64,000 bases of DNA from Boothiomyces macroporosus (taxonomy: Eukaryota; Chytridiomycota; Chytridiomycetes; Rhizophydiales; Terramycetaceae): positions 186,001 through 250,000 of the forward strand of contig JADGKB010000006.1 in assembly GCA_027604185.1 (NCBI GenBank). Reading direction: 5' to 3'. The position numbers were made by a program, and so were the translations under genes. The notes under the pieces were generated by a model. It saw only the letters and a program-made list of their open reading frames with translations. It ran no database searches and was not told where the DNA came from. This document shows, piece after piece, positions 561-63,074 of the stretch; the stretch's first letter is position 1; the number at the start of each line of letters is the position of its first letter.

Positions 561-1586
561 ATGTCTATTCTCTTTCTCATTGCAACTGCCCTCTCTGCTC
601 CTGCTGTAGATTCAACTTGGGCGACTCCTCCAGCTAATGAAGACCTTAGTGCACCAATGTCTTATGAAGAGTACTCTCAAAGAATGGCTCCTTCAACCCA
701 CACTTTTGTTCCTCAGGATAATAGTGTGGTAAAGCGAGACTGGGCTGGCCAAGTTGATTCAACCACTGCATCAAACTTCGCGTTGATGATGCAGTATGCA
801 ACTGCTGCCTACTGCCCGAGCACCACCAACACTAAAACATGGAACTGTGGGGTTCGATGTGGGGGATCTACCTCTAATACCGTCATTACTGCTTCTCATG
901 AAAACTACTTGACTGGTGCTGCTGGTTATGTTGGTTATAACGATGATCATCAAGCAATTATTGTTGCAGTTAGAGGTACTGCAAATATCCAATCTGCGGT
1001 TCAAGATATCCAGCTGTGGCAAACACCCGCAGATATGGGTGGATTTACAAACTCCAAAGCTCCATCTTCTGCTCTTATCCACCAAGGTTTCAAAAATACA
1101 TACTTGGATTTACAGGCAACTATTCAATCTGCGTTGAGCGCATTGGTTGCCAAGTACCCAAACTACAACATTCTTTTCTCTGGCCACTCTTTGGGAGGTG
1201 CAGTTGTATCTTTGGCGGCTATGGATACTTACAACATCATGGGTGATGCAGTCGCTGACAAAATATCTGTCTTTACTTTTGGAGAACCTCGAGTTGGTAA
1301 TTTGGACTTTGCAAACTACATTGATAGCCTCCCATTTGCATCTAGAATCTATAGAGTAGCAAAATCTGGCGATTTAGTGCCTCACATTCCACCTGAAAAC
1401 TTTTTTGGATTCACTCATCACGTAGACAACTACGAAATCACCAGATTCGGCAGTGCAACAAACTACTGTGTTACTACCGGGCCTGGCGGAGAATCAAATA
1501 GTTGTGGGTCAGACCTGATCTTGTTGAATGTAGTAGATCACATCACCGGATACTATGGGTGGTATACTTACCCATGGGTTTGCTGA
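561..1586 (+). CDS. Secreted class 3 lipase (copy 1 of 3)
   Basis: Triacylglycerol lipase of the Rhizomucor/Rhizopus type, 341 residues, no intron. A short hydrophobic signal peptide (about residues 1-15) is followed by a Pro/Ser-rich propeptide ending at Lys58-Arg59, a likely kexin site. The mature domain starts DWAG and carries YCP..TWNC near residue 84. The nucleophile elbow is GHSLGG with Ser210. Asp271 in SGDLVPH and His327 in DHITGYYG complete the triad. Extra cysteines suggest disulfides. It heads a tandem array of three lipases on the same strand, which points to external lipid or ester digestion. An AATAAA follows about 20 bp after the stop. The family call is secure; substrate is inferred. 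Confidence 0.93.
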   Translation: MSILFLIATALSAPAVDSTWATPPANEDLSAPMSYEEYSQRMAPSTHTFVPQDNSVVKRDWAGQVDSTTASNFALMMQYATAAYCPSTTNTKTWNCGVRCGGSTSNTVITASHENYLTGAAGYVGYNDDHQAIIVAVRGTANIQSAVQDIQLWQTPADMGGFTNSKAPSSALIHQGFKNTYLDLQATIQSALSALVAKYPNYNILFSGHSLGGAVVSLAAMDTYNIMGDAVADKISVFTFGEPRVGNLDFANYIDSLPFASRIYRVAKSGDLVPHIPPENFFGFTHHVDNYEITRFGSATNYCVTTGPGGESNSCGSDLILLNVVDHITGYYGWYTYPWVC

Positions 1587-2139
1587 ATTGTTCCATTATT
1601 GTTAGAATAAAGATTGAATTTATGTTGAATTTGGTGATAGACAACTGACTGGAACAGATCTATTTGATCAGCTGCCATACAGAGGAAACTGTAGGGCGGA
1701 GAAACCCCAGCTGGGACATTGAGAAAAGACTCGTTCCGAAAACACGGCGTCCAAGATTTGTGGAATATGCGAATAATGAACTCTGATTTATCTTTTATTG
1801 TTCACTAATTCATCACCGGTCATGAACAACTTTATTCATGACATTTGCTTTTAGGCTGAATTGTGTCTTGCTTTTGTACTACATTGCGGAAGGCTGGGAC
1901 TGATGGTCCGTGTCCACTTGAGCGTGCCATCCTCTTCATGCAAAGAATGTTTAGTATTCCCCAACAACTGCAGCAAAAATCTCCAGGCAATAAAAAAGGT
2001 CAGAGGTTCGAGCACCTTTTCAAAGTATTTTGAATTTCAATTATTTTCAGAGAAAATCGGAAGAGAACCGTTACGGTCGTGTGGTCCTTGATGCGCTTTG
2101 ATCTTAATTTAAATAGACGATAGAGAGCAGCATACTCCA
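1587..2139. other. Intergenic between lipases 1 and 2
   Basis: Contains the lipase 1 polyadenylation signal (about 1606-1611) and the lipase 2 promoter, with TTTAAATAG around 2107. No other gene could be supported; frames here lack family motifs. Confidence 0.5.
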
Positions 2140-3165
2140 ATGTCTTTTGTATTCCTAGCATCTCTGTTACTTGCTGCTCCACAAGCTGTAGACAATTCAT
2201 GGCCAGCTCCTCCTCCAAATGAGGATCTGAATGCAAACATGACTTATGCCGAATATTCCCAGCAAATGGATCCATCATCTCACACATACGTACCAATCCC
2301 AAACTCTGTTAGCAAGAGAGATTGGAACGGACCAGTAGACACCACCACGGCAAACAACTTTGCTCTAATGATGCAACTGGCTGTTTCGTCGTATTGTCCT
2401 AGCACAACCAACTCTAAAACTTGGAACTGCGGAGTTAGATGCCAAGGCTCGCTTTCTGGAACTGTAATCGTTGGTTCTCATGAAAACTATGCGTCGGGTG
2501 CTGCTGGATTCGTTGGCTATAATCCAGATCAAAAAATGATTGTCGTATCCGTCAGAGGTACAGCAAACATCCAATCTTGCATTCAAGATATTCAATTATG
2601 GAAAACTCCAGCTGATTTCGGTGGTTTCCCAAACAACCAGGCTCCTTCAAGTGCGCAAATCCACCAAGGCTTCAAGAATACTTATATTGACTTGCAACCA
2701 ACATTACAATCCGGATTGGAAACACTGGCTGCTCAATATCCAGACTATCACATCATCTTTTCAGGCCATTCTCTAGGCGGGGCTGTTGTAAATCTTGCTG
2801 CACTCGATTTTTACCAAAACAATCCACAATACGCCGATAGAATCTCAATCTATACTTTTGGAGAGCCTAGAATTGGCAATCTCGACTTTGCCAATTATAT
2901 AGACAGTCTACCTTATGCTCAGAGGATCTTTAGAGTGGCAAAATCAGGCGATATCGTTCCTCACTTGCCTCCAGAATCATTCTTCAACTTTGCCCACCAT
3001 ATTGACAACTTTGAAATCACCAGATTTGGCACTACTACAAACTTTTGTGTTACTACTGGGCCAGCTGGAGAAAGTTCTTCTTGCAGCTCAGACACTACTT
3101 TGTTGAACCTGGTTGATCATATTACTGGATACTACGGATGGTGGACTTATCCATGGTTCTGTTGA
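2140..3165 (+). CDS. Secreted class 3 lipase (copy 2 of 3)
   Basis: Second tandem paralogue, 341 residues, single exon. Signal peptide of about 13 residues, propeptide closed by Lys59-Arg60, then the lipase domain. Catalytic residues read directly: Ser211 in GHSLGG, Asp271 in SGDIVPHLPP and His327 in DHITGYYG. It is closer in sequence to copy 3 than to copy 1, for example in the shared FYQNNPQY stretch and LPPESFFNFAHH. Same orientation as its neighbours with its own upstream AT-rich element, so separate transcription is likely. Probably secreted and kexin-activated. Confidence 0.93.
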   Translation: MSFVFLASLLLAAPQAVDNSWPAPPPNEDLNANMTYAEYSQQMDPSSHTYVPIPNSVSKRDWNGPVDTTTANNFALMMQLAVSSYCPSTTNSKTWNCGVRCQGSLSGTVIVGSHENYASGAAGFVGYNPDQKMIVVSVRGTANIQSCIQDIQLWKTPADFGGFPNNQAPSSAQIHQGFKNTYIDLQPTLQSGLETLAAQYPDYHIIFSGHSLGGAVVNLAALDFYQNNPQYADRISIYTFGEPRIGNLDFANYIDSLPYAQRIFRVAKSGDIVPHLPPESFFNFAHHIDNFEITRFGTTTNFCVTTGPAGESSSCSSDTTLLNLVDHITGYYGWWTYPWFC

Positions 3166-3739
3166 TACATTTTAGACTTTTACATTGAAATACATTCTTT
3201 TTGCAAGTGAGGTTTTTGACATCTGTGCCCTTGCACAACAGACTAAAAGTGGTCAAGTGACTAGTTTCTTTTCTCCATCATAGGCCGAGAGGGAACCCAG
3301 GATAACTAAAAATCCCTTATTGTGCAAGGAATATCACTGCATAAACGTGATTATATAATTGTTTAGCCGCAATCAGCTTGGTTGAACTTTTTCGTGCGCT
3401 AGGTTTGATCTCATTGACCCTTTGATAACGGCGTGTTTGTTTTTGTACCACCAGCGGCAGGGAACAGGTGTTCTTGGCCTCGATTCAATTAAAGAACCAA
3501 AATGTGCCGGGAGCATGCAGTTTTTCCTCATCCACTGTAAATAACTGCTACGAGCCTAGTTTCTATACTCACAGCCAAAGAGAAAAGTAAAAATCTAGTT
3601 TCATACATGTAGAATTTCGGATGATTTTCAAAATAGCTGGGCATTTTGTTTAAGTTTAGATTTTAGTAATGTGGTCTTGTGCTCCTCACTTGACGCTATG
3701 ATTTTGGTTTAAATTGGAAAAGGTGGCAGGACTGGATAG
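3166..3739. other. Intergenic between lipases 2 and 3
   Basis: No additional gene seen. The last 30-40 bp contain TTTAAATT (around 3708), a plausible core promoter for lipase 3. Confidence 0.5.
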
Positions 3740-4762
3740 ATGTTATTCCATCTTTTAACAGCACTAACAACCGCCTTGCCGCAATCTGTTGACAACAGTT
3801 GGCCATCCCCACCTCCAAATGAAAACCTCCATCCAAACATGACTTACTCGCAGTACTCTGATCAAATGACCCCATCTTCGCAAATCTACGTACCTATTCC
3901 AAACAACTCAAAGAGAGATTGGGCTGGAGTCGTTGATTCACAATTGTCGTCAAATTTTGCACTGATGATGCAATTCGCCGTTGCTTCTTACTGTCCAAGC
4001 ACTACTAGTTCCAAAACATGGAATTGCGGTGTGCGTTGTGAAGGTTCAACCGCTGGTACTGTTATTGTTGGTTCATATTCAAACAGTGCAACAGGTGCTG
4101 CTGGCTTTGTTGGTTACAATTCAAACCAACACATGATTATTGTATCTGTTAGAGGGACCGCAGATATTCAGTCGTGTATCCAGGATATTGCTTTGTGGAA
4201 AACTCCAGCAGATTTCGGTGGGTTTTCAAACAATAAGGCTCCATCCAGTGCGCAAGTCCATGCAGGCTTCAAGAATACTTATATGGGTCTCCAATCCACT
4301 TTACAATCAGGTCTGGTTTCGCTTGCTGCTCAATACCCTTCGTTTGACATTGTTTTTACTGGGCATTCATTAGGAGGCGCGGTTGTAAATCTAGCTGCCA
4401 TGGACTTTTACCAAAACAATCCACAATACGGATCTAGAATCGCCATCTATACTTTTGGAGAACCTAGAGTAGGTAATGTTGACTTTGCCAATTATATCGA
4501 CAGTCTGCCTTATGCTCAAAAGATCTTTAGAGTAGCGAAATCAGGCGATATCGTTCCTCACTTGCCTCCAGAAAGCTTTTTCAACTTTGCACACCATATA
4601 GACAATTATGAAATCACCAGATTCGGCACTACTACTAATTACTGTGTTACTACTGGACCAGCAGGCGAGAGCGATTCATGTAATTCTGACACGATTGCAA
4701 TCAATCTGCTTGATCACATTACTGGTTACTACGGGTGGTACACTTACCCATGGTTTTGTTGA
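3740..4762 (+). CDS. Secreted class 3 lipase (copy 3 of 3)
   Basis: Third tandem paralogue, 340 residues, single exon. Signal peptide about residues 1-14, propeptide ending at Lys58-Arg59, mature domain from DWAG. Triad Ser210 (GHSLGG), Asp270 (SGDIVPH) and His326 (DHITGYYG). The C-terminus WYTYPWFC is almost identical in all copies and the final cysteine is conserved, suggesting a terminal disulfide. An AATAAA lies about 9 bp after the stop. Same function as copies 1 and 2 is inferred; chain-length preference cannot be read from sequence. Confidence 0.93.
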   Translation: MLFHLLTALTTALPQSVDNSWPSPPPNENLHPNMTYSQYSDQMTPSSQIYVPIPNNSKRDWAGVVDSQLSSNFALMMQFAVASYCPSTTSSKTWNCGVRCEGSTAGTVIVGSYSNSATGAAGFVGYNSNQHMIIVSVRGTADIQSCIQDIALWKTPADFGGFSNNKAPSSAQVHAGFKNTYMGLQSTLQSGLVSLAAQYPSFDIVFTGHSLGGAVVNLAAMDFYQNNPQYGSRIAIYTFGEPRVGNVDFANYIDSLPYAQKIFRVAKSGDIVPHLPPESFFNFAHHIDNYEITRFGTTTNYCVTTGPAGESDSCNSDTIAINLLDHITGYYGWYTYPWFC

Positions 4763-57043: not shown

Positions 57044-58782
57044 ATGTAAAAAGTAAATTAATTACAGGTCATCCGCTGCTCTTCAATTAGCTAATCCTAA
57101 AGCAGAAGTCGCTCGTAGAGGACAAGCGCTCCAGCACAACATTAACGCCGCCTTGGGTCTTCAAGAAGTTTTGAAGACTAATCTTGGGCCTAAAGGGACA
57201 ATCAAGATGTATTTCTTTTTAATTTCAGGCTAGTCGATGGATCCGGACAAATTAAATTGACCAAGGATGGAAAAGTGTTACTCTGCGAAATGGTAGATCG
57301 TTTGATCTAACGATAGCAAATCCAAAATCCAACCGCCACTATGATTGCAAGGGCCGCAACTGCTCAAGATGAAATTACAGGTGATGGAACTACCTCGAAT
57401 GTGTTGCTAATTGCTGAACTTTTGAAACAGGCAGACAGGTTTATTTCTGAGGGTTTACACCCACGCATTATCACCGAAGGATACGAACTTGCAAAACAAG
57501 CCGCTTTGGAGTATTTGGAGAAATTCAAAGTGTCGAAAAAGATGGATCGTGCAACTCTTTTGGACATTGCCAGAACTTCCTTGAGAACCAAAGTAAGAGA
57601 GGAATTAGCAGATTCGTTGATGGAAGCCGTTGTTGATGCAGTATTATGTATCCACACTCCTGGTGAACCAATCGATCTTCACATGGTTGAAATCATGAAG
57701 ATGATGCACAAAAATGACACGGATTCCCGCTTGGTTAAAGGCCTTGTTATGGACCATGGTGCTCGTCACCCTGATATGCCAAAAAGAGTTCAAGATGCGC
57801 TCATTTTGACTTTGAATGTATCTCTTGAATACGAAAAGAGGTAAAGATCAATCTAAAAAAAGTGAAATCAACTCTGGATTCTTCTACAGCAGTGCAGAAC
57901 AACGTGAAAAGTTGGTTGAATCTGAAAGAAAATTTGTTGATGCCAAGATCAAAAAAATTGTAGAATTTAAGAACCATGTCTGTGATGGCAACAAGAAAGG
58001 ATTTGTTATCTTGAACCAAAAGGGTATCGATCCATTGTCTCTTGATGTATTGGCAAAGAATGGAATTTTGGCTCTCCGTCGTGCAAAGAGACGTAACATG
58101 GAAAGGTAAATGCAAATTAAATCAGACTTCAATTGGCGGTTGGAGGTGTTGCTCAAAACTCTGTTGATGACTTGACTCCAGAAATCTTGGGACATGCAGG
58201 ATTAGTATATGAACATGTTTTGGGAGAAGATAAATTCACCTTTGTAGAAGAAACTCAAAATCCAAAGTCAGTAACCATCTTAATCACTGGTCCTAACCCA
58301 CACACTATTGCACAAACTAATGATGCAATTAGAGATGGTCTCCGTGCAGTAAAGAATGCTATTGAAGATGAATATGTTATTCCTGGCGCTGGTGCTTTCC
58401 AAATCGCTTTGCATTCTCACTTGATGAAATTCAAGGACACTGTTAAAGGAAAGGCAAAGTTGGGTGTTCAAGCTTATGCCGATGCTATGCTTATCATTCC
58501 TAAAGTTTTGGCACAAAACGGAGGATTTGACGTACAGGATGTAATTGTTTCTTTACAAGTAACTTTATCTAATATTAGGAAGAGTATGCTAATGGTCATG
58601 TTGTGGGTGTTGATCTCAACACTGGCGATACTTTAGATCCTGCAACTGAAGGTATCTGGGACAACTATCGCGTTCATAGACAAATGCTCAACTCTTGTTC
58701 AGTTATTGCCAGCAACTTTTTGTTGGTGGATGAAATGATGAGAGCAGGACGTTCTAGTCTTAAATCTGGCGGTGAAAATTGA
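57044..58782 (+). CDS. CCT6: CCT zeta chaperonin subunit (CCT6)
   Basis: Subunit of the TRiC/CCT cytosolic chaperonin that folds actin and tubulin. Introns 57046-57067 (22 nt), 57209-57228 (20), 57293-57316 (24), 57841-57862 (22), 58106-58125 and 58559-58578 (20) are removed; 536 residues. The first intron splits the start codon: AT at 57044-57045, G at 57068. Conserved: [120 protein letters not shown]-like [35 protein letters not shown]. Confidence 0.96.
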
Positions 58783-58974: not shown

Positions 58975-61900
58975 ATGTTTCTTCTGCTGGTTTCCACAAT
59001 CTATGGTCTTTCTGACACAGGAGCTCCTGCAACAGGGTATCGGCCATTAAATGGGACAGGCAACAATATTGCGTATCCTGAATACGGTGCTTATCTAACC
59101 TTCTACTCCCGATACCATTCATCTCCTGGTTTCTCAGATGGAATATCTGCTTTACCGCTGAATAGACCTGAAGCAAAAATGGTCAGTAACACCCTATTTG
59201 GCGCTGAACCTTCTGTACAAAATTCTGATGCGATTTGCGATTTGCTTGCGTATTGGGGGCAATTTGTTGCTCATGATGTCGCACTTACCAAGGGTACCCA
59301 AATGCTGATTTAGGTAACTCTAGCGATAACATGCCTGTTAATGTAAATACTTGCGATTTCGTTGATTTTGGCGTTGAGTGTGGTGGAATTGTCCAGTACA
59401 ACATTTCCAGGGCTCTAAAAGCGCTACGGCCTCAAGGAGATTATACCCCAATCAACTTTCAAACATCTTTTATAGATGCCTCTACGGTTTATGGTCCCAA
59501 CCAGGCCCAGAATAACCTCGTCCGTGCGTTTTCCAATGGTTTGCTCGAAACATGGTTTGATCCAGTTTCTGGTGCGGAGCTCTTGCCTGTCGTAAATGTC
59601 AACAGTAGCGAATTCTCAGTGATGGACTCTGCTAGGGTTACGCCAAATACAAAAATCTTTTTGGCGGGAGATGTACGAGCAAACGTTCATCCAGCCTTGC
59701 AAACATTACACACTCTTTTTGTAAGAGAGCATAATAGAAGAGCCAGGGAGCTATATCAAAATAACACTTCCATGTCCGATGAAGAAATTTACCAACGAGC
59801 AAGGGCTTGGGTTATAGCTTTGGTGCAGAAAATTACCTACACACAGTACTATCCTACTCTTATCGGGTCTTCTCTGCCGACATACACTGGCTACAAAGAA
59901 CAGGTTGATGCTACCATCTCTGCTGATTTTATTGGTATGGCTTATCGATATGGTCATAGTGCAATCAGCAGTGAAATCTTGCGGCTAGATGAAAATGGAT
60001 TAGAAGATATGAAAGGGCACTTGCTGTTACGCGATCACTTTTTCAATACAGCAGGTATATTAACCACCAATGGCGATATTGAATCAATTTTGAGAGGCTT
60101 GGTATCGCAAAGAGATCAAGAGGCAGACAGTTTAATGGTGGATGACCTTCGAAAGCATTTCACAGATAAGCCATACGATCTTGCTACGATTAACGTCATG
60201 AGAGGAAGAGACTTTGGTTTGCCATCCTACAATGCTCTCCGAGAAGCGAATGGGTTAGCCCCTGCGATGACTTGGTCTGATATTACGAGCAATACAGCAG
60301 TCCAACAGCGTTTAGCGTCAGTATATAGTTCGGTTTGGGATGTTGATCCGTGGGTGGGTGGATTATGTGAAGATAAAGATCCTTCTTCTGGAAGTCATGT
60401 CGGCCCATTATTCACTACAGTAATCGCAAACCAGTTTACAGCTTTAAGGGATGGTGATAGATTTTGGTATGAGAGAGATGGAGTATTGACCCCTCAAGAA
60501 CAGCAGCAACTCCAATCTTGGACACTCTCCACAGTGATTCTAAAAAATACAAACATCAGCTACTTCCCTAGCAATGCTTTCGCGCTATATAATGGGCCAT
60601 TTACGCAAGCTTCAACTGTTAGCTCAAGTGGGTCTCAGTCCTATGTGGCAACGTCAGACTATACCATAAAGTGGAGTTTGGTCGGAACAACCGCGATTTC
60701 TTTCACACTTTGTGGCAATTTCCAAGGATGGATGGGTATTGGTCTGAATCCGAATGCAGTGTCAATGCTTGGAAGCGATTTTATGATTGCTATTCCTGAT
60801 CAAACTACTGGTGTATTCACTGTAAAGACTTACCATGGTTATGTAGATCAATCAGTTCCTAGCTTGTCATCTGTCTATTCTATCGACCCATCCACAGTTG
60901 TTGACGCAAAAAGCACTTGTGGAACCACTCAAGGAGTTACATTCCAAAGACCTTTAGCTCCGGGTGGTACAGCACAACTGCTGTCCTCAAATTCTTCGGT
61001 TTACCTAATCTTTGCCTACGGTGTAAACTACTACTCGCTATCAGCCCCTCATGGACCAGCGAACAGAGGAGGGACGCAGGTCAATTTCTTTGCTACATCA
61101 GCCAGTATTACCTCTGATCCATCGTTGGTTGATACCCTATTAAGTCTGGAGCTGAACTTGGTTGCTATGCATGGAGTTGTGCTGTTTACTTGCTTTGCAG
61201 TGGTTTTTCCCACTGGGATATTCATAATTCGATATATGAAATTGAACAAAAACTCGCTTGCAATCCACAAAACCCTAATGTCCATGGGGGTATACACATC
61301 TGAAATTACCATGCTTGCATTATCTTTGGGTGTAAGAAGCAAGTTTGGATACACACATGTCAAATTTGGAATTGCAATGTTTTGTGTATTAACCACAACG
61401 GCATTTCTTGGCAACCAATCAACTAGGTTGAAAACAATACGAAATATAAACAGAAGGCACTTGAAGCTTGCGCATAGAATTATGGGTGCCTGCGCTATGT
61501 GTCTAGGATATATAACTGCTGCCTTTGGAGTCCTTGACATTTCAGCTTACAACAGTTCTTTTGAAGGAATGCTAATATACATTTACCTAGCATGTATTGC
61601 TTTCGTAGTGGCAGTATTCTTTTTTGTTGGAGAATCTGGAATTTTCAACAGGATATGGGCAGAAAAGGCAGCTGCACAACAGAGCCAGCCTAGAGGATAT
61701 TACTGGAGTGAAATCATTCAAAGAATAGAAAATGGAGAAAATTGGATAATAATTGGAAGCTGTGTTTATGATGTTACAGAGTTTCGCTTCAAGCATCCGG
61801 GTGGAATGGAGCTACTAGATGAAGCCGTTGGTACTGATGCAACCCGATCATTTTTTGGAACTGTTGCTCCTTTACCAAAAGCGTTGAACGTAGTTGCGGA

Positions 61901-63074
61901 ATCCTCAGATACTGTGCAAAAAAGTGCAACAGTCACGCCATTGGTCAAAAGTCGACCAAGAGCAAAGTCTAGTTCTTTCAAAGCACCGAAAGAAAAAGTA
62001 CCCAAATTTCTTATCCCTGCACACAGCTCCTTTGCGATTCAACAATTACATTCAATGTTTGTGGGAAGAATTTTGGATTATATACCAACTTACGAAAAGC
62101 AGTTGCTTAAAAGACTACCGAATGAACTATCAATTACCTCTTCTACTCATGGAAAGAAAGCTATGACAAATTCAGCTTTCAGCGTAGCATCTTCAAGTGT
62201 TTCGATGGAAGATAGATACTTTTTTATTTCCAAATACCTTTCTGAGATGGAAATCAAAACAGCAGATGCCAATCCAGGAATATTTCCTTCTCATTACATT
62301 AACCTGAGAGTTATGGCAAAGTTTTTGGTTACTGGCCCAAATGCAAAATGCCCCGTATACAAGTTCCGACTTCATTTTGAAACCCCAGAATTGCAAATTA
62401 ACTTTTTACCTGGGGATCATATCATCGTTATGCATAGAATTCTGAATGAAAAATCCAACGAAGAAAAGCTGTTGCAGTGCATTTCGAGAAAGTACACGCC
62501 TATCAAAGTATCAAACCAAGGCTACATGGAATTGGTCATCAAGATATATAAAGACGGAGCCCTGACACCACACTTGGGACAGTTGTCCGTTGGAGACAAA
62601 GTCCGTGTCAGAGGGTATTTTGAAGGACAAAAAGTGTTGGGACCTGCTGTACCATCGTATCCACCTTATGAAACAGTACTATTGTTATGTGCAGGATCTG
62701 GTATAACCCCAATGCTGCTCTTGATTGATTACTTTATCAAGGCCTCGGTTTCCGTCAAACCGCCTAAAATTCTTCTGCTAACTCAAAATAGCACAGTCGA
62801 TGATATCATCATGGAATCAGAAATTAATGATATCATGTCTCGAAACATGGATATTTTGCATGTTGTAAACTATCTAAGCAACCCTCCACCAAATTGGAGA
62901 GGAGGTGTAAAAGGAAGAATCACCCCAGAAGATATCGAAAAGCTAAATCTGTTTACTGAAAATGTCCAGAATTATGGCATATTTATATCAGGCCCACCTG
63001 GATTCCAAGACGGTTTGAAAAAGTATTTCGTTTCGAGAAAGAACATGGACCCAGAGAGAGTGTTTGTTCTCTAG
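58975..63074 (+). CDS. Peroxidase-DOMON-b561-b5-reductase fusion
   Basis: One 20-nt intron (59294-59313); 1359 residues. Signal peptide 1-13. Animal-type haem peroxidase about 25-530, with distal His100 in YWGQFVAHD, Arg244 in VREHNR, proximal His321 in YRYGHS, and GPLF.....FTALRDGDRFWYE. DOMON domain about 548-702 (GWMGIGLNP, SDFMIA). Cytochrome b561 core about 712-880, five to six helices with His726, His758, His788 and His827. Cytochrome b5 about 900-1025 with HPGG (His934) and a second ligand candidate His1010 (AHSS). Cytochrome-b5-reductase-like module about 1100-1359 with RKYTP for FAD, GSGITP and SGPPGF for NAD(P)H. Expected topology: peroxidase and DOMON outside, b5 and reductase in the cytosol. 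Confidence 0.93.

Follow-up and report, generated by a model that had tools for sequence, protein, structure and literature searches.

DUOX enzymes join an N-terminal animal-type heme peroxidase domain (An_peroxidase) to an electron-transfer core in the membrane that is fed by NAD(P)H and built on a ferric-reductase/NOX domain. In the excerpted text of one paper, DUOX is reported to lack the proximal histidine and to have an inactive peroxidase domain, and the fungal linoleate diol synthases (Ppo) join a peroxidase domain to a P450 (PMC4420034). Plant CYBDOM proteins, among them HYP1 and CRR, place a DOMON cytochrome with Met/His ligands before a four-histidine b561 domain. According to excerpts on HYP1, it carries a trans-membrane electron current and reduces ferric and cupric acceptors, and its Met90 and His174 are modeled as DOMON heme ligands, about 20.9 Å iron to iron from the b561 heme (PMC10784544). 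In yeast, CRR did not raise ferric reductase activity, and yeast makes no ascorbate unless a precursor is supplied (excerpts of PMC10784552). The Caenorhabditis elegans b561 protein Cecytb-2 has measured heme midpoints of +67 and +126 mV (excerpts of PMC12563681). One eFRE clade, with members in Naegleria, Albugo, and Phytophthora, joins extracellular DOMONs to a ferric-reductase domain, a precedent within the ferric-reductase superfamily for a DOMON on a trans-membrane reductase (PMC3591440, in part).

The Boothiomyces macroporosus gene described here resembles each of these systems in part. Like DUOX, its product begins with an An_peroxidase domain, probably extracellular, that is followed by a membrane core apparently fed by NAD(P)H; unlike DUOX, that core is a DOMON-b561-cytochrome b5-b5-reductase chain rather than a ferric-reductase/NOX domain, and Pfam finds no EF-hand. 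It shares with the CYBDOMs the succession of a Met/His DOMON and a four-histidine b561, which was recognized by alignment and model, but a peroxidase is added at the N-terminus and cytochrome b5 and b5-reductase at the C-terminus, and NAD(P)H would take the place of ascorbate, the donor of plant CYBDOMs. Like the linoleate diol synthases, it is a fungal fusion starting with a domain of the An_peroxidase superfamily; unlike them, it has no P450 match in Pfam. Unlike the NADH-cytochrome b5 reductases CYB5R3, nitrate-reductase b5R, and Ncb5or, its reductase shares a chain with a DOMON and a trans-membrane b561.

Gene model and short introns

The gene lies in the window, the 64-kb stretch of DNA that was analyzed, with the following features.

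58975-63074, forward strand: whole gene, one B. macroporosus gene of 1359 amino acids
58975..59013, forward: probable signal peptide, residues 1-13, a short hydrophobic N-terminus
58975..59293, forward: exon 1, 106 codons plus one base
59294..59313, forward: intron, 20 nt, GT..AG, with a CTGAT branch-like site
59314..63074, forward: exon 2, 3761 nt including the stop
59038..60581, forward: animal-type heme peroxidase, residues 22-529, spanning the intron (Pfam E 2.7e-128)
59260..59274, forward: distal heme site, with Gln96 (59260-59262), Ala99 (59269-59271), and His100 (59272-59274)
59676..59687, forward: distal Arg228 (59676-59678) and Val231 (59685-59687), by alignment
59955..59957, forward: proximal heme His321
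60654..61064, forward: DOMON cytochrome, residues 554-690; predicted ligands Met591 (60765-60767) and His686 (61050-61052)
61119..61634, forward: b561 membrane domain, residues 709-880, five model helices
Within it, forward: predicted b561 heme ligands His726 (61170-61172), His758 (61266-61268), His788 (61356-61358), and His827 (61473-61475)
61704..62069, forward: cytochrome b5 with a loop inserted between its ligands (Pfam 3.6e-12)
Within it, forward: b5 ligands His934 (61794-61796) and His1010 (62022-62024), spacing 76, by alignment
62322..63071, forward: NAD(P)H:b5-reductase, FAD part RKYTP, NAD part AGSGITP

The product of the joined exons exactly matches the NCBI model HK103_006026, in which the modules run signal peptide, An_peroxidase, DOMON, b561, cytochrome b5, and b5-reductase. 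The initial annotation had proposed this order, within one long uninterrupted exon after one short intron; both points were borne out, the order by Pfam, alignment, and a structure model. Relatives P0002, P0004, P0005, and P0006 have similar hydrophobic N-termini. A Pfam scan of the protein gave no Ferric_reduct, FAD_binding_8, or EF-hand match at E 0.05, and NAD_binding_6 appeared only below the cut-off. Two genes or a missed stop are unlikely, because the same module order recurs across the family. A sequencing frameshift in place of the intron was also considered, since a one-base indel in GGG/CCC would equally restore the frame; this reading was rejected because the extra residues have no counterpart in relatives, the NCBI model makes an identical join, and 19- to 21-nt introns recur. 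One fused gene was seen in the genome (counts are lower bounds), and the other An_peroxidase match belongs to a separate gene (C22).

The 20-nt intron is the gene's only one, and 19 to 21 nt looks like the normal intron size of this genome. In 256,903 bases, comprising the window and 20 regions mostly from contig 6, GT[AG]...CTRAY...AG pairs peaked at 19, 20, and 21 nt (61, 51, and 43, versus about 21, 23, and 20 in ten Markov resamplings). Pairs with a GTA donor at 19 to 21 nt numbered 115, whereas 20 resamplings gave 31.9 on average and never more than 38. Over lengths of 12 to 120 nt, the excess was about 3- to 4.4-fold at 19 to 21 nt and 1.9-fold at 22 nt, with scattered other lengths reaching 1.6- to 2.2-fold; 81-nt pairs were in excess in the window alone (9 versus 3.3), an excess that the larger set did not show. 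GTA..AG joins that restore the frame, counted as pairs that sometimes overlap rather than as distinct introns, numbered 50, 61, 24, and 25 at 19, 20, 21, and 22 nt; none of the other lengths from 13 to 31 had more than 14. Five control dinucleotide pairs showed no peak at 19 to 21 nt. A further 15 loci from other contigs, 50,286 bases in all and including L039, which overlaps the first set, gave a count of 15 versus 5.7. In individual genes, joining across two introns of Pelota gives products that align gap-free. The joined product of a neighboring gene aligns with one single-residue gap, four residues past the join; CCT5 was rejected as its identity, since the alignment shows CCT zeta. Comparably short introns are listed for heterotrich ciliates (15 to 16 nt), mikrocytids (16 to 17 nt), and chlorarachniophyte nucleomorphs (18 to 21 nt) in the excerpted text of PMC10245619. 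Among the literature matches listed, no report of 19- to 21-nt introns in chytrids or any fungus was found.

Modules and heme ligands

The peroxidase domain matched 8s6c (named lactoperoxidase; E 1.1e-91) and peroxinectin A (6erc; E 1.6e-79) in the PDB. Q96, H100, R228, H321, and N400 all aligned with superfamily sites, and the profile, the distal Gln/His/Arg, and the proximal His/Asn, which are shared with lactoperoxidase, peroxinectin A, and bacterial relatives, place the domain in the peroxidase-cyclooxygenase superfamily. The two heme-site histidines that had been called from the initial reading are the distal His100 and the proximal His321. The arginine assigned with them, in REHNR, was the wrong one; the catalytic Arg228 sits in GDVRAN. 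In myeloperoxidase (MPO), Asp94 and Glu242 are the heme ester acids. Ala99 and Val231 occupy the positions that we take to be theirs, and N400 presumably corresponds to MPO Asn421. The domain thus does not belong with the mammalian-type covalent-heme peroxidases (MPO/LPO) and, unlike lactoperoxidase and peroxinectin A, has both ester-forming acids replaced and is tethered to a membrane.

In the structure model, the reductase, DOMON, and b561 folds were recovered (pTM of the long model, 0.53). Pfam did not match b561 in the Boothiomyces protein itself; the model has helices at residues 709-747, 754-779, 787-814, 817-850, and 859-880, four of which were detected by hydropathy alone at the chosen cut-off, the second being missed. 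A PDB sequence search with DOMON-b561 alone returned one weak, unrelated-looking match, to a chlorophyll-binding protein (E 0.0047). The cytochrome b5 has its heme histidines of HPGG and HS..A at H934 and H1010. The Pfam match stops at 55 of 74 positions, and absence of the second histidine was considered and rejected, the residue being merely displaced by the loop. The reductase has the RxYT FAD motif, the GxGxxP NAD motif, and the CYB5R fold and is CYB5R-like; the Cys of its CGPP motif is Ser in the five Terramycetaceae proteins.

The five model helices place the b5-reductase opposite the DOMON. Given the predicted signal peptide, the DOMON would lie outside and the C-terminus in the cytosol, and the position of the peroxidase at the N-terminus suggests that it too is outside the cell. 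This anatomy supports the inside-to-outside direction of electron flow that had been suggested earlier. Hydrophobic stretches 1 and 3 carry His726 and His788 close to their outer ends, and stretches 2 and 4 carry His758 and His827 close to their inner ends, suggesting that the pairs hold one outer and one inner heme. The protein appears built for moving electrons through five heme sites to an outside peroxidase.

Spread and ligand conservation of the family

The family sample comprised 200 distinct proteins from the best 120 of 1104 and the best 120 of 1287 matches. Precomputed Pfam joined An_peroxidase to DOMON or b5 in 53 of them, of which 52 were aligned; P0160 (partial) was left out, as was P0155 (peroxidase only). 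With at least half of each module covered, all six were present in 41 of the 52, Boothiomyces counted, and the remaining 11 were without some modules, mostly C-terminal ones. The 41 full members include records from Boothiomyces, Terramyces, Gorgonomyces, Quaeritorhiza, Cladochytrium, Powellomyces, Spizellomyces, Borealophlyctis, Geranomyces, Siphonaria (UNVERIFIED_CONTAM), Dinochytrium, Chytriomyces, Lobulomyces, Sorochytrium, Blastocladiella, Rhizophagus, and Cafeteria and from EukProt and metagenome (environmental) entries, with several genera counted repeatedly. We take these genera to be chytrids, blastoclads, arbuscular mycorrhizal fungi (Rhizophagus), and protists. The search for the same order elsewhere, which the initial annotation had called for, thus found it in chytrids, blastoclads, Rhizophagus, Cafeteria, and environmental sequences. 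Pfam order agreed in 12 of 12 members scanned, with a weak DOMON in Gorgonomyces (E 0.039) and NAD_binding_1 unmatched in P0030, P0032, P0038, and P0039; P0036 (EukProt) has three DOMON stretches and an Spt4 domain in front. Core identity to members outside Terramycetaceae was 18 to 29%.

Many of these records are named just "heme peroxidase" or "hypothetical protein." No NCBIfam model covered the whole chain in the three proteins tested, matches to the reductase part falling below the cut-off, and no catalogued family of identical order emerged there. Among the matches listed from the open-access full-text literature in PMC, no description of the six-module fusion was found; the excerpted text of PMC8027222 mentions a DOMON gene, but separately from a heme peroxidase. 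The statement that no protein of this order had been described accordingly holds for that literature and fails for the sequence databases. By sequence, the family consists of known modules in a conserved combination.

The nine predicted heme ligands were all present in 37 of the 41 full members, the exceptions being Siphonaria, Dinochytrium, EukProt P0036, and Blastocladiella. The DOMON Met was M in 40 members and L in one, and the DOMON His was present in all 41. The four spaced b561 histidines, as noted initially, were aligned and were kept, in order, in 40 (one gap), 41, 41, and 41 members. The b5 histidines were kept in 41 and 40 (one D), both together in 40. The proximal His was H in 40 of 41, with one gap in Siphonaria (FRYG-AINQ in the record), which argues that the terminal heme matters. 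Of the 29 readable members, 28 have another residue at the MPO Asp94 position, and 10 of 41 have Glu at the Glu242 position; most members should therefore form at most one heme ester, and the Boothiomyces protein none. At the Asn421 position, 13 of the 41 have Asn and 25 have Asp.

The distal site is less constant. Gln, His, and Arg were complete in 20 of the 29 members readable at the distal His column, Boothiomyces among them, and incomplete in Geranomyces, Siphonaria, Chytriomyces, four Rhizophagus proteins, Blastocladiella (which retains the distal His itself), and env45 (perhaps merely a faulty gene-model start). Paraphysoderma, outside the 41, has Phe at the distal His position. Of the nine members with an incomplete triad, eight have the proximal His, and the ninth is Siphonaria, with its gap. 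Peroxidase turnover therefore cannot account for the family as a whole. The wire that these nine members keep, and the ferric and cupric reduction by HYP1 (excerpts of PMC10784544), would suit a protein whose main output is reduction of metals or quinones, with the peroxidase as a heme-bearing electron outlet or peroxide guard. We judge this unlikely, given that 20 of 29 members, Boothiomyces included, retain the distal residues and that it offers no reason for keeping a 500-residue peroxidase.

Peroxidase-less paralogues and the proposed electron path

At C14 (L017, L018), where no An_peroxidase match was found, the same genome carries at least three peroxidase-less genes that have DOMON, b561, b5, and FAD parts. 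Their b561 was matched by Pfam in one and by alignment in the others; all three have Lys at the second b561 His position, and one also has Cys at the third. In a 27-row core tree they group with Blastocladiella and then Rhizophagus (98/98 and 100/98). A quick 45-row tree gave the same grouping, but long branches meet there at Blastocladiella and the B. macroporosus paralogues. The peroxidase was likely lost in the paralogue line, if the rooting, which is by midpoint only and arbitrary, can be followed. A single-protein search with residues 435-1247 matched five Terramycetaceae proteins only.

In a tree of peroxidase domains that set 24 rows of the fused family beside 20 others, the fused rows all fell on one side (SH-aLRT 84, not a starred branch), and the peroxidase-only Fimicolochytrium record P0155 fell among them, next to Powellomyces; long branches meet at Rhizophagus and Blastocladiella, and such joins are often false. 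The tree fits one old fusion. This grouping, together with an order unchanged across fungi, Cafeteria, and EukProt entries, weighs against the fusion being only a tether, with the peroxidase acting alone on external peroxide and DOMON-b561-b5R acting alone. Distal-site changes and peroxidase-less paralogues do indicate parts able to evolve apart, but we consider a mere tether very unlikely.

Because the genome has three peroxidase-less paralogues, the fused protein relates to the core without peroxidase as DUOX does to NOX, on a b561 chassis. NOX-type proteins (FAD_binding_8 plus NAD_binding_6) are encoded in the same genome (L013, L015), so the fused protein is not there to make up for the lack of a NOX.

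We propose a single chain in the plasma membrane, for which we infer the heme loading, membrane site, flow direction, and final step. Electrons from cytosolic NAD(P)H would pass to FAD and cytochrome b5, then to the inner b561 heme (His758/His827), the outer b561 heme (His726/His788), the extracellular DOMON heme (Met591/His686), and the peroxidase heme (His321). Set against the O2 and peroxidase couples as generally known, b561 hemes with potentials like those of Cecytb-2 suit Compound I/II and are too positive for superoxide. By that analogy, the hemes here would be able donors to Compound I/II or ferric chelates and poor donors to O2, and an NADH-fed peroxide reductase is favored where the distal site is intact because of this fit. 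The DOMON heme would most likely reduce the peroxide-oxidized peroxidase heme (Compound I/II), and cytosolic NADH would pay for the destruction or use of extracellular hydroperoxides. In proteins that have lost the distal site, such as those of Rhizophagus and the Chytriomyces type, the wire probably serves to reduce metals or quinones. We favor, though only tentatively, an NADH-fed wire that reduces peroxide-oxidized peroxidase heme, or ferric iron outside the cell, over one that makes superoxide. Since CRR did not raise ferric reductase activity in yeast, which needs a precursor to make ascorbate, an NADH module makes sense in fungi.

A DUOX-like output, in which the wire would form superoxide or H2O2 from O2 at the heme of the DOMON, the outer b561 site, or the peroxidase and the peroxidase would use the product to cross-link wall phenols or tyrosines, is unlikely, even though a peroxidase is joined to a trans-membrane reductase core as in DUOX, the genome has the core without it, and the Boothiomyces distal site is intact. 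The potentials of Cecytb-2, the NOX-type genes already present, and the proximal His kept in 40 of 41 members and reported absent in DUOX all speak against it. The earlier suggestion of a DUOX analogue built on b561 therefore stands for the architecture, with O2 reduction less likely.

The peroxide-reducing wire, taken across the family, may be the first described in which an extracellular peroxidase heme is hard-wired to cytosolic NADH in one polypeptide, with five hemes and a flavin. Such a trans-membrane NADH peroxidase on a b561 chassis, independent of DUOX/NOX, would occur in zoosporic and arbuscular mycorrhizal fungi and several protists, some lineages having lost the peroxide chemistry and kept the wire; we regard this as possible but doubtful. 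If true, it would be a second route, convergent with DUOX, linking cytosolic reductant to extracellular peroxidase chemistry in chytrids, blastoclads, and mycorrhizal fungi, groups with a poorly known surface redox biology. It would provide a single-gene system for studying electron passage through DOMON and b561 hemes, and the natural series of intact peroxidase, altered distal site, and no peroxidase would let the role of each module be asked.

Relatives of the fusion gene with and without the peroxidase

In the sister strain Boothiomyces sp. JEL0866, two relatives of the fusion protein, P0002 and P0004, are also encoded by fused genes. Their locus tags are adjacent (HDV06_006911 and HDV06_006912) and the contig is of equal size for both, which suggests that the pair is a tandem duplicate. 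The B. macroporosus genome itself carries paralogues of the core without the peroxidase:

Contig C14, 14-20 kb and 110-118 kb (regions L017 and L018): three DOMON-b561-b5-FAD paralogues without peroxidase

In the alignment, the second b561 heme histidine is replaced by lysine in all three, so that the inner heme of these proteins would, as judged from sequence, be one ligand short. In paralogue B, the join that preserves the conserved NGT|DISND excises 20 nt (L017:8578-8597) that begin with GT and end with CG rather than AG. Either splicing is non-canonical here, or the assembly is wrong at this point, or the gene has decayed.

Other redox genes and lipase frames

Contigs C182 (L013) and C12 (L015) encode NOX-type proteins that combine the domains Ferric_reduct, FAD_binding_8, and NAD_binding_6. 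A CYBDOM-type gene cluster lies at C22:50991-67278, where seven b561 matches fall within ~16 kb, interspersed with four DOMON matches. The same contig carries a second An_peroxidase gene, separate from the fusion (C22:80476-81072, L002; 495-aa open frame). On C29 (L019), a long open frame of 1032 aa contains repeated DOMON-like units and ends in b561. At window positions 561-4762, three open frames follow one another, each 340-341 aa long; both of the frames tested were identified as class 3 lipases.

Very short introns

Very short introns lie at these window positions:

Window 59294-59313: 20-nt intron of the fusion gene
Window 58559-58578: intron of the 19-21-nt class

Many more 19-21-nt candidate introns are spread across L017-L036; the pattern of the class is GTAAT..CTAAY..AG. 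Within 257 kb of this genome, 115 GTA-donor pairs spaced at 19-21 nt were observed, versus 31.9 expected, and homology runs across the intron join in the genes for CCT zeta and Pelota. On this sequence evidence, 19-21 nt looks like the normal intron size in the nuclear genome of B. macroporosus. Among the literature matches listed, no fungal report of 19-21-nt introns was found. These introns are possibly of greater interest than the peroxidase fusion.
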